NCBI GenBank assembly: GCA_913777515.1
Contig: CAJYSL010000277.1
Coordinates: 1 to 39,877, forward strand
Reading direction: 5' to 3'
Origin: an uncultured Mucilaginibacter sp.
GTDB taxonomy: Bacteria > Bacteroidota > Bacteroidia > Sphingobacteriales > Sphingobacteriaceae
Length of the DNA stretch: 39,877 nucleotides
Within the stretch, counting starts at the first letter, position 1. Each line of letters begins with the position of its first letter. This document shows positions 28,323 to 33,256 of this stretch, piece by piece. The notes under the pieces were generated by a model. The model did not search any database. It was not told the origin of the DNA and saw only the letters and a program-made list of their open reading frames with translations. The translations under genes and the position numbers were made by a program.

Positions 28323-29093
28323 TTATCCTTTGATGCTCTTAATAAACTCCGGTATCTTTTCCATATAACCGGGCGTTCCTAACAACTTCACAAAAGCACT
28401 ACCTACAATGGCCCCGTTGGCGTAGGCGGTTGCCTTTTGATAAGTAGCCCGGTCGCCAATACCAAAACCAATTACCGTCGGATTTTTAAGCTGCATGTCT
28501 TTAATGCGCTGAAAGTAAGTTTCGGTAGCATCAGATACCTGCAGGCTGTTTCCGGTAACAGATGCTGACGATAAAAGGTAGATGAAGCTGTTACTTAATT
28601 CATCAATTTTGCGGATGCGGGCTTCAGCAGTTTGCGGGGTAACCAAAAATATGTTACTTAATTCATGTTGGGCAAAGCAATTTTTATATAGCGTTTCGTA
28701 TTCATACATCGGCAGGTCGGGTACAATTACGCCATCCACACCTACCTCGGCAGCTTTAGCACAAAAGCGTTCCACGCCATACTGTACCATGGGGTTAACA
28801 TAGCCCATCAGCAATACCGGGATACTTACCCGCTTGCGCAGCTCGGCCAGTTGCTCAAACAGCAGGTTCAAGTTCATGCCGTTATCCAAGGCGGTTTGCG
28901 AGCTATGCTGAATGGTTGGCCCATCGGCTACAGGGTCTGAATACGGAAAGCCAATTTCCAGGAAATCAACACCGGCTTTTTCCAACGCTTCGGCAATATC
29001 TACGGTGGTATTAAGTTCCGGGTAACCGGCTGTAAAATATACGGATAACAGGTTGTTCTTTTTTTTATCGAACAATTGATTTAATCTGTTCAT
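28323..29093 (-). CDS. trpA: Tryptophan synthase alpha chain
   Basis: YFTAGYPELNTTVDIAEALEKAGVDFLEIGFPYSDPVADGPTIQHSSQTAL...GVDGVIVPDLP...GFGIGDRATYQKA. Confidence 0.97.
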   Translation of the reverse strand: MNRLNQLFDKKKNNLLSVYFTAGYPELNTTVDIAEALEKAGVDFLEIGFPYSDPVADGPTIQHSSQTALDNGMNLNLLFEQLAELRKRVSIPVLLMGYVNPMVQYGVERFCAKAAEVGVDGVIVPDLPMYEYETLYKNCFAQHELSNIFLVTPQTAEARIRKIDELSNSFIYLLSSASVTGNSLQVSDATETYFQRIKDMQLKNPTVIGFGIGDRATYQKATAYANGAIVGSAFVKLLGTPGYMEKIPEFIKSIKG

Positions 29094-29233: not shown

Positions 29234-30415
29234 TTAAAAGCCGAAGTGTTTAATATAAGTTGATAAATCTTTGTCGCCGCGGCCCGACAGGCATACCACC
29301 ACATTGTCGTCTTTCTCAAATTTCATTTTCTCAAGATAGGCAAACGCGTGTGCCGACTCGATAGCCGGAATGATACCTTCCAGTTGTGAGAGCAGCAAGC
29401 CGGCTTGTAACGACTCATCATCAGTAATGTTTACATACTGCGCACGCTGTATTTTATGCAGATGAGCATGCTGCGGACCGATACCGGGATAATCCAGACC
29501 TGCCGAAATAGAATAGGGCTCTACCACTTGTCCGTCATCCGTCTGCATCAAAATGGTACGGCTACCGTGCAATATACCTTCGCGGCCTAACACTGATGTT
29601 GCTGCCGAATGTCCGCTATCTACACCTTTGCCCGCTGCTTCAACCGCAATCAATTTTACCTGCTCATCCTCTAAAAAGTGGTAGAACATACCCATGGCGT
29701 TACTGCCACCGCCTACACAAGCCAATACATATTCGGGTAATTCTTTACCGGTTTGTTCCAGCAATTGTTTTTTAGTTTCTAAAGAGATAATGGATTGAAA
29801 CTGGGCTACCATTTCGGGATAAGGATAAGGCCCGACTACCGAACCGATAATATAATGCGTATCAACCGGGTTGCCAATCCAATCGCGCATAGCTTCGTTG
29901 GTGGCATCTTTAAGGGTTTTACTGCCCGAGGTGGCCGGCACTACGGTAGCACCCAGCATTTTCATGCGGGCTACGTTAGGCGCCTGGCGCTCCATATCTA
30001 TCTCGCCCATATACACCACACATTGCATGCCCATCAACGCACAAACTGTAGCGGTGGCTACACCATGCTGACCGGCGCCTGTTTCGGCAATAATGCGTTT
30101 TTTGCCCAGGCGCTGGGCCAAAAGTATCTGGCCTATGGCATTGTTTATTTTATGCGAGCCAGTATGGTTTAAATCTTCGCGCTTTAAAAATATATTGGCA
30201 CCATATTTTTCAGAAAGCCGTTTTGCCAAATACAGCGGCGAAGGCCGGCCAACGTAATCTTTGAGTAACTGGTCAAATTCGTTTTTAAATCCTGCATCAC
30301 CAATAATTTGCAGGTACTGCTGCCGTAATTCTTCAACGTTTGGGTAAAGCATCTCAGGGATGTATGCCCCGCCAAAATCTCCGTAATATCCCTGCTCGTT
30401 TACTGTATATCTCAT
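29234..30415 (-). CDS. trpB: Tryptophan synthase beta chain
   Basis: [83 protein letters not shown]. Confidence 0.98.
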
Positions 30416-30417
30416 GG

Positions 30418-31038
30418 TTAGTTAGCTCTTAATATATTAAATGCGTTGCGCAACTGGTCTATGTTTTTTAATCCGGGCTCAATTTCAAACCGGCTATTCA
30501 GGTCAACACCGTAAAAAGCCGGGTGTTTAATTTCTTTTACGCTGGCGATGTTTTCGGGGCTTAACCCGCCGCAAATAAAAAACGGCACATCCAATTTATA
30601 CTTGGCTAAAATATCCCAGTTAAAAGTTTTACCCGAGCCACCGTGCCCTATCGTTTTGGTATCAAACATAAAGTAATCTACGTGGCCTGCGTAATCGTCC
30701 AATTGTGCAAAGTCAAAATCGTCATCAACACCAAAGGCTTTTAAAACCGTCACTCTATCCCGCAATGCCTGGCAAAAAGCCGGGGATTCGCTGCCGTGCA
30801 ATTGTACGGCATTAAACCCCAATTGGTTTATCAGAGCATTAATTTTATCAGCCTCTTCATTTACAAAAACAGCTGTTTTGCAGATGGACTCAGGCAAGGC
30901 GGTTAGTACCTCTGCCGGTAAATCAGCAATGTACCGGGGCGATAAACCATAGCAAATAAAGCCCGTATAATCTGGATTCAACTCGGCCAATGCCTTAATA
31001 TTTTCAGGATACTTCATCCCGCAAACCTTAATCTTCAT
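30418..31038 (-). CDS. trpF: Phosphoribosylanthranilate isomerase
   Basis: [30 protein letters not shown]...AVQLHGSES...LKAFGV...GGSGKTFNW...[12 protein letters not shown]...GVDLNSRFE. Confidence 0.95.
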
Positions 31039-31039
31039 G

Positions 31040-32029
31040 TTAGCTTTGCAACAGGCTTTTAAAACTATTAAGAGCTTTACCGTTCATCAGGCTTTCTTCG
31101 GCTTCGTAAAAACTGTCGGCAAAACTTTGGCCGCCTTTAATGGTGCGGATGGCTAAAGCTGCATTGCAAAGCACTACATTATTTTGCGCCGTAGTGGCTT
31201 TACCCTCTAACACCTGCATAAATATCGCAGCCGAATCTGCCACGGTATGGCCTCCGGTTATCTCCTCAGCATTAACCTTGTCAAAACCTAAAGCGGTAAT
31301 ACTGTTAATCCTCTCGCCATCTGCCGAAAAGGTTTTAAAATCGCCGGTTAACGATACCTCATCATAACCATCCAACGCATTTACAATAGTATAGTTGATG
31401 GTTGATTTTTGATAAAGATAGGCGTACAAACGGGCCAGCTCAAGGTTGTAAACACCTACCATCTGGTTATTGGGGCGTGCCGGATTAACCATTGGCCCTA
31501 ACATGTTAAAAAACGTTTTTACCGCTAACTCGCGGCGTACCGGTGCCACGGTTTTCATGGCCGGGTGAAATAGCGGTGCGTGCAAAAAACAAATATTGGC
31601 TTTATCCAAACCGCTGTTTAGCTTATCGCCATCGTTAGTAAACTGGTAGCCCAGGTACTCCATGACGTTGGATGAGCCGCAGCCTGACGATACACCATAG
31701 TTACCATGCTTGGCTACTTTATAACCAGCCCCGGCCACTACAAATGATGCCAGGGTTGATATATTAAAGGTGTCTTTACCATCGCCGCCGGTTCCGCAGA
31801 GGTCTATTAAATCATCGGCTTCTAAATTGATGGGCAGGCACAGCTCCAGCATGGCATCACGGAAACCTTCCAGTTCGTCAACCGTGATGGTACGCATACA
31901 GTAGGCCGTCATAAACGCCGCCATTTGCGACACGTTGTATTTACCTTGTGCTATATTGGTGAGTATCTCTTTAGATTGCTCCCGGCTAAATGTTTTGTGC
32001 TCGAATAAATGATTTAGTATCGCTTTCAT
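31040..32029 (-). CDS. trpD: Anthranilate phosphoribosyltransferase (ORF extends to 32137; true start likely Met at 32029)
   Basis: MKAILNHLFEHKTFSREQSKEILTNIAQGKYNVSQMAAFMTAYCMR...DLCGTGGDGKDTFNISTLASFVVAGAGYKVAKHGNYGVSSGCGSSNVMEYLG. Confidence 0.96.
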   Translation of the reverse strand: MKAILNHLFEHKTFSREQSKEILTNIAQGKYNVSQMAAFMTAYCMRTITVDELEGFRDAMLELCLPINLEADDLIDLCGTGGDGKDTFNISTLASFVVAGAGYKVAKHGNYGVSSGCGSSNVMEYLGYQFTNDGDKLNSGLDKANICFLHAPLFHPAMKTVAPVRRELAVKTFFNMLGPMVNPARPNNQMVGVYNLELARLYAYLYQKSTINYTIVNALDGYDEVSLTGDFKTFSADGERINSITALGFDKVNAEEITGGHTVADSAAIFMQVLEGKATTAQNNVVLCNAALAIRTIKGGQSFADSFYEAEESLMNGKALNSFKSLLQS

Positions 32030-32112: not shown

Positions 32113-32140
32113 AAAAAAAGGGCTGCCTTGCGGGCAACCC
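32113..32140 (-). terminator. Attenuator terminator hairpin upstream of trpD
   Basis: Minus strand GGGTTGCC-CGCAA-GGCAGCCC-TTTTTTT (8-bp stem, one G-T wobble, T7). Confidence 0.88.
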
Positions 32141-32181
32141 TTCATATTATATCAATTAATAAACAGGAGATTGCCTTACGA

Positions 32182-32223
32182 TTACTCGTTAAGCCACCAC
32201 CAGTTATTGTTTTGTATATTCAT
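32182..32223 (-). CDS. Trp leader peptide MNIQNNNWWWLNE
   Basis: Minus strand ATG AAT ATA CAA AAC AAT AAC TGG TGG TGG CTT AAC GAG TAA; three consecutive Trp codons upstream of an intrinsic terminator and trpD. Confidence 0.88.
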   Translation of the reverse strand: MNIQNNNWWWLNE

Positions 32224-32235
32224 TGTTTACGGTGG

Positions 32236-32267
32236 CAAATATGATTATTGTTTTTTCGAAATGCAAA
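32236..32267 (-). promoter_or_regulatory. Candidate promoter of the trp leader
   Basis: Minus strand TTTG (32264-32267), 20-nt spacer, CATATTTG (32236-32243; one mismatch to TAnnTTTG), ending 12 nt before leader ATG. Confidence 0.45.
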
Positions 32268-32311: not shown

Positions 32312-33256
32312 ATGGCAATAGGTAACAGGGTAATTAATCCCGAGGATGATTTAGGCTTTGGCCGACAGGCCGTTGCACAACGGGTAATTAATAAAGACGG
32401 CTCGATAAACGTTAACCGCCGGGGCCTCCCTTTTTTCAGAACAACCGACGTTTACAACCACCTTATCAGCATGAGCTGGACTAAATTCTGGCTGGTGATA
32501 CTAAGCGGTTACCTGATTACCAACATTGCTTTTGCCTTTATTTATAACCTCACCGGCATAAAAAACCTGGAAGGTGCTGATGGCAAAACCATGATAGCTC
32601 ATTTTTTTGATGCCTTTTTCTTTTCGGCACAAACCCTGTCGACGGTTGGGTATGGGCATATTAGTCCTAAAGGTATACTAACCAATTCTATTGCAGCTTT
32701 TGAGTCGATGTTGGGACTGCTATCGTTCGCGTTGGCTACCGGTTTACTTTATGGCCGGTTTTCGCGGCCGTCGGCTAAAATTATTTACAGCAATAATATG
32801 CTGGTAGCACCTTATCTGCAAAACCAGAAGGGTTTGATGTTCAGACTGGGTAACCTGCGCAGCAATACACTCATTGACCTTTCGGTTGATGTGATATTTT
32901 CGTACAACGAGCAGGTAGACGGTAAGATAGTCCGTAAGTTTTTTCCGTTGAAGCTGGAACGCAGCAAAGCCAGCATTTTAACCCTAAGCTGGACGGTGGT
33001 ACATCCGCTTGACGAAGATAGCCCGCTTTTTCATGTAACACCCGAAGAACTGAAAGCCACTAACGCCAATTTTGCGGTATTAATGAAAGCATATGACGAC
33101 ACCTTTTCGCAAACGGTGCATTCGCGCACCTCTTACCAGTATGATGAGTTAATATGGGGAGCCAAATTTACGCCGGCATTTTATACGGATGAAGACGGCA
33201 AGGTATCGCTTGATTTAAGCAGGATTGGCACTTATGCCAAAGCAGACCTTCCGTAA
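32312..33256 (+). CDS. Inward-rectifier-type (KirBac-like) potassium channel
   Basis: FFFSAQTLSTVGYGHISPKGILTNSIAAFESMLGLLSFALATGLLYGRFSRPSAKIIYSNNMLVAPY followed by cytoplasmic Ig-like Kir domain (LMFRLGNLRSNTLIDLSVDV...WTVVHPLDEDSPL). Confidence 0.93.
   Translation: MAIGNRVINPEDDLGFGRQAVAQRVINKDGSINVNRRGLPFFRTTDVYNHLISMSWTKFWLVILSGYLITNIAFAFIYNLTGIKNLEGADGKTMIAHFFDAFFFSAQTLSTVGYGHISPKGILTNSIAAFESMLGLLSFALATGLLYGRFSRPSAKIIYSNNMLVAPYLQNQKGLMFRLGNLRSNTLIDLSVDVIFSYNEQVDGKIVRKFFPLKLERSKASILTLSWTVVHPLDEDSPLFHVTPEELKATNANFAVLMKAYDDTFSQTVHSRTSYQYDELIWGAKFTPAFYTDEDGKVSLDLSRIGTYAKADLP

Follow-up and report, generated by a model that had tools for sequence, protein, structure and literature searches.

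A putative ribosome-mediated tryptophan attenuator upstream of trpD in Mucilaginibacter

The window analyzed here is a stretch of 39,877 nucleotides from an uncultured species of Mucilaginibacter, a soil bacterium, and carries on its minus strand a short leader followed by genes of tryptophan synthesis in the order trpD-F-B-A, trpE being absent from the window. The gene proposed to be regulated, trpD (31040..32029), encodes anthranilate phosphoribosyltransferase (TIGR01245, 304.6 bits, above cut-off) and is followed by trpF, phosphoribosylanthranilate isomerase (30418..31038), whose match to NF002298 (E 7.7e-48) is under that model's own cut-off, all 13 of its profile matches being to models that contain TrpF. 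Next come trpB, tryptophan synthase beta (29234..30415; TIGR00263, 598.6 bits), and trpA, tryptophan synthase alpha (28323..29093; TIGR00262, 235.3 bits). On the plus strand, the neighboring gene at 32312-33256 diverges from the leader and trpD; it bears a weak resemblance to potassium channels, and a similar gene adjoins trpD in two other loci (L010 and L013).

The leader contains an open reading frame of 13 residues and a stop codon, MNIQNNNWWWLNE (32182..32223, minus strand), with its ATG at 32223, three tandem TGG codons at 32202-32194 and TAA at 32184-32182; it is read from the sequence and conserved in congeners. Four RNA segments can be placed around it. Segment 1 pairs with segment 2 in the predicted 1:2 hairpin (32167..32201), with the core CUUAACGA / UCGUAAGG and a GUAA loop, which is present both in the RNAalifold consensus of 35 leaders and in the minimum free energy (MFE) fold of the window. 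The stop codon of the leader sits inside the GUAA tetraloop that closes this hairpin (32185-32182), and the relatives often have other GNRA-like loops at the same position (GAAA, GAGA, and GUGA). Segment 2, GGCAAUC (32169..32175), and the first Trp codon are 27 nt apart, in a register that is kept in relatives. Segment 3, GGGUUGCC (32133..32140), serves both as the 5' arm of the terminator and as the partner in the predicted antiterminator, and its TTGC core is without variation in A1. Segment 4, GGCAGCCC with a run of seven T (32113..32127), is the 3' half of an intrinsic terminator that is found in the sequence, the MFE fold and the consensus fold, and which reads GGGTTGCC (32140-32133), a CGCAA loop, GGCAGCCC (32127-32120), and T7 (32119-32113). 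Direct reading thus bears out the reading frame, segment 2 and the terminator coordinates given in a preliminary description of this DNA; the terminator is where that description placed it, but the spacing between stop codon and terminator is 41 nt rather than 42. Of 200 dinucleotide shuffles, 199 fold less stably than the leader itself (z −2.57).

A predicted sigma-A type promoter (32236..32267, minus strand) lies immediately upstream, consisting of TTTG at 32267-32264, a spacer of 20 nt, and CATATTTG at 32243-32236, which differs from TAnnTTTG by one mismatch; congeneric leaders are preceded by a like TTTG...ATATTTG arrangement. The TAnnTTTG motif is the −7 box, located at −12 to −5, that has been mapped in Flavobacterium psychrophilum (PMC9723704), and applying that spacing to the window (32223-32239) predicts a transcription start at about 32231 and a 5' untranslated region of about 8 nt. 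The same prediction gives 3-15 nt across 80 leaders, so that these transcripts would be nearly leaderless, in agreement with the very short 5' untranslated region proposed earlier. One passage of the literature describes Shine-Dalgarno sequences as lacking in Bacteroidota (PMC6847099), and the leader would presumably be translated without one. The position of the leader between a promoter-like site and trpD-F-B-A, also proposed earlier, holds, and it bears on the suggestion that the hairpin is simply the terminator of an upstream gene and no attenuator is present. The hairpin does have the form of an intrinsic terminator, but the gene at 32312-33256 points the other way, the hairpin read on the plus strand has no T-run, and its location between the promoter-like site and trpD is not that of an upstream gene's terminator. 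With a divergent upstream neighbor, there is no gene on that side that the terminator could serve; the upstream-terminator reading, which has a negligible probability, was dropped.

The tandem Trp codons are a conserved feature of the locus. In a sample of 36 Mucilaginibacter trpD loci that includes that of the window, a Trp-Trp(-Trp) leader reading frame is present at the same position in every one, and a search with a 28-nt leader pattern through a collection of 85,488 species, each represented by one genome, gave 85 stretches, of which 80 were listed. All 80 listed loci belong to Mucilaginibacter or to unnamed Bacteroidetes or Sphingobacteriaceae assemblies, and all encode the leader; in each of the 78 listed loci that have trpD in range, this gene follows the leader in the same orientation at 95-227 nt. 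The trpD gene of one uncultured relative among them (L127) is 96% identical. Conservation of the micro-reading frame and of the paired segments in relatives had been set beforehand as a test of the proposal, and it is seen at 36/36 and 80/80 listed loci. The two strands of the 4.67-Mb assembly together contain 96 copies of TGGTGGTGG, from which we calculate that a correctly oriented copy would be expected by chance ~0.003 times at a distance of up to about 300 nt from any particular gene. To judge from the sequences, the location of the leader next to trpD is not a matter of chance. The Asn codons that precede the Trp codons are also conserved, with either AAC or AAT in use, and they may pair with a downstream UUUGUU run, in which case coding and structural constraints are not separable at this point.

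The downstream elements are conserved in a similar manner. The terminator hairpin and T-run are present in all 35 aligned leaders, and, counted from the first Trp codon, segment 2 starts at 27 nt (25-28) in at least seven of the family's genera, a register kept within 2 nt despite variation between genera in the C-terminal part of the peptide (LNE, HYENS, HNAIA, and RCINCGR). Such a constant distance is what would be demanded by the footprint of a ribosome on the Trp codons. Covariation between segments 2 and 3 across genera gives a permutation p of 0.54 in a test that is powerless because segment 3 is nearly invariant, an invariance to be expected if segment 3 has two partners; one double change from G-C to A-U is present (L077). 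When a covariance model, R1, built from the 35 Mucilaginibacter leaders only, was run against 301 family genomes, 239 of them, representing 19 of 25 genera, gave a match, and the window's own genome gave a second one; E-values from such models are rough.

The effect of ribosome position was modeled by folding 116 leaders from the RNA downstream of the ribosome to the end of segment 3, with the first, second or third Trp codon or the stop codon in the A site. The mean expected number of 2:3 pairs is 7.5 with the ribosome at each of the Trp codons and 1.1 at the stop codon, compared with 2.7 in the absence of a ribosome, and with a ribosome stalled at a Trp codon, 116/116 leaders are predicted to pair segment 2 with segment 3. 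In the window, this pairing was matched by 2 of 300 shuffles of the spacer and, in ten other leaders, by between 0 and 24 of 300. Folding with and without a masked ribosome, which had been suggested as a check, therefore yields an antiterminator at the Trp codons that is lost at the stop codon and, together with the consensus fold, supports the mutually exclusive 1:2, 2:3, and 3:4 pairings that the preliminary description had drawn by hand; in silico at least, the leader behaves as a switch between antiterminator and terminator governed by the position of the ribosome. The 1:2 stem stands in the consensus of 35 leaders and in the MFE fold but is predicted to be weak in the isolated RNA of the window, where, without a ribosome, 2:3 pairing is favored (6.9 pairs) and the 1:2 hairpin does not win, whereas the median leader does not favor 2:3. 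An untranslated leader may consequently allow read-through in this genome, and according to the model, it would not clearly favor the terminator.

On this evidence, a ribosome-mediated transcription attenuator of trpD-F-B-A is very probably the best explanation of the element, as judged from sequence and modeled folds. RNA polymerase would start near 32231 and produce a transcript with a very short 5' untranslated region and the 13-residue leader. When Trp-tRNA is ample, the ribosome would reach the stop codon and cover segment 2, so that segments 3 and 4 would pair and transcription would end at the T-run; when it is scarce, the ribosome would stall on UGG-UGG-UGG without covering segment 2, which could then pair with segment 3, and the polymerase would continue into trpD. 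The start site, translation of the leader in the absence of a Shine-Dalgarno sequence, actual stalling at the Trp codons and the response of the leader to Trp are what we infer here. The leader appears to be of the appropriate functional class in having a reading frame rich in conserved codons for Trp, the product of the operon.

It should also be considered whether the translated leader acts mainly by polarity, through Rho-dependent termination or translational coupling, the hairpin being only a weak terminator. This would be compatible with a leader reading frame that is real by conservation and with the result that the terminator is predicted at equilibrium in the complete RNA whatever the ribosome state. 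For an attenuator, this latter result means that the choice would have to fall while the transcript is still being made, as it does in the classical mechanism. Such a scheme as polarity or coupling, however, needs neither a terminator hairpin and T-run kept in 35/35 aligned leaders nor a segment 2 that is complementary to segment 3 and constant in its spacing from the Trp codons, and the Trp codons are ~95-227 nt from trpD, too far for coupling; the probability of this alternative is low. It is less likely still that Trp is sensed by some other device (a T-box, TRAP, or a repressor) and that the Trp-rich reading frame is incidental, because cmscan with Rfam gave no match at threshold to the T-box model or to any other Trp element in the window or the leader, TrpR was not found in the eight genomes of the genus sample, and the in-frame Trp codons are conserved throughout the genus; nothing turned up in favor of this reading.

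A further amendment to the preliminary description is that this leader appears to belong to a pair of Trp attenuators serving a split pathway. In congeners, trpE is at a separate locus, with the order trpE-trpG-trpC in one of them (G002, read from L259), and each of the 30 trpE loci examined (L209-L238) has its own Trp-Trp leader, most with GGCAGCCGG, that precedes a terminator of the CCCGGC type. When these trpE leaders are folded with a ribosome mask, 5.1 pairs form between segment 3 and the RNA upstream of it in the stalled state versus 0.9 at the stop codon. An Rfam search of eight trpE loci gave no match at an E-value of 1 or better, and a model of the trpE leader, R2, matches 95 of 151 family genomes in 15 of 25 genera. 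The window's own genome has a trpE-type leader, MTKQLHNLGWWHLS, at G000:C340:10-123 on the minus strand (L283), with its terminator cut by the end of the contig. A match to PF04715 in the same genome (L056) was rejected as trpE because it covers only part of the domain and is far weaker than the matches of the trpE genes of congeners; from its sequence, it is probably pabB. A broader interpretation, to which we give an even chance, is that Mucilaginibacter and much of the Sphingobacteriaceae have two unlinked trp operons under separate Trp attenuators, whose leaders differ in sequence (that of trpE-G-C being without an Rfam match at eight loci) and are both translated nearly leaderless and without a Shine-Dalgarno sequence, so that a single tRNA signal is read twice by differently built switches where TrpR is not detected. 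The literature searched gave no description of trp genes divided between trpE-G-C and trpD-F-B-A with a leader for each, and the layout offers a natural test of coordinated control after the splitting of an operon.

The element resembles the trp leader of enterobacteria (RF00513, Escherichia coli trpL) in its Trp codons, in the logic of 1:2, 2:3, and 3:4 pairing and in having a terminator before the operon, but it differs in having three Trp codons rather than two, a predicted 5' untranslated region of ~8 nt without a Shine-Dalgarno sequence, proposed control of trpD-F-B-A rather than trpE, and a genus sample in which TrpR is not detected. Attenuation, which depends on a ribosome loading quickly onto the emerging leader, seems to have been retained in a phylum without Shine-Dalgarno sequences. 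In another family, leader-peptide attenuation has been proposed for F. psychrophilum on the basis of the 5' regions mapped for its amino-acid operons (PMC9723704). The Bacteroid-trp RNA, RF01692, was listed by Weinberg et al. in 2010 (PMC2864571) and has been discussed as preceding the trp operon in F. psychrophilum (PMC6414381); the literature searched gave no Bacteroidota trp attenuators beyond these. The attenuation logic of the preliminary description stands, but this kind of element is not new, RF01692 already covering the phylum.

Comparison with the Rfam trp models, also suggested earlier, has a mixed outcome. The window falls short of both cut-offs. It scores 16.9 bits for RF00513, where 41 are required, and is not a member of that family; for RF01692, where 49 are required, it scores 35 bits (E 0.0089 in a search of 181 bases; absent at the gathering threshold), but the best-scoring congener (G461) passes the RF01692 cut-off with 53.4 bits. 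Five others score 46-48 bits, the match in G028 falls exactly at the trpD leader, and the cut-off is passed by 8 of 151 family genomes. In the opposite direction, R1 recovers the RF01692 loci L057, L058, L059, and L065 of Flavobacteriaceae with E-values of 1.7e-9 to 1.7e-6, and L063 at only 0.007. R1 also matched in the reverse orientation at these loci; we took those hits for echoes of the terminator, which is palindromic, and set them aside. The scores of up to 53.4 bits in congeners and the recovery of Flavobacteriaceae members by R1 indicate that the window holds a divergent member of the Bacteroid-trp kind and not a formal RF01692 hit. Shared features are the phylum, the position upstream of trp genes, a short reading frame with two or three successive Trp codons, and a hairpin over these codons followed by a terminator; the window itself has three successive Trp codons and an intrinsic terminator before Trp synthesis genes. 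The RF01692 model ends at segment 3 and is without the terminator and the 2:3 pairing, so the terminator and antiterminator parts missing from it are now supplied. In 11 of the 12 Flavobacteriaceae RF01692 loci (L057-L068 except L061), a leader GUCGUGA that includes the UGA stop codon is the exact complement of UCACGAC, which lies in the loop and 3' arm of the terminator, a part that the Rfam model stops before; from these sequences, the antiterminator of the Flavobacteriaceae leaders may be built differently, by pairing with segment 4 and the loop in place of segment 3. Bacteroid-trp attenuation is in this way extended to a family mostly missed at the Rfam cut-off. The trpD leader of the window is the same kind of element as RF01692 Bacteroid-trp, already known in the phylum, and what is new is a divergent Mucilaginibacter copy, unseen at the Rfam threshold, that is one of a pair.
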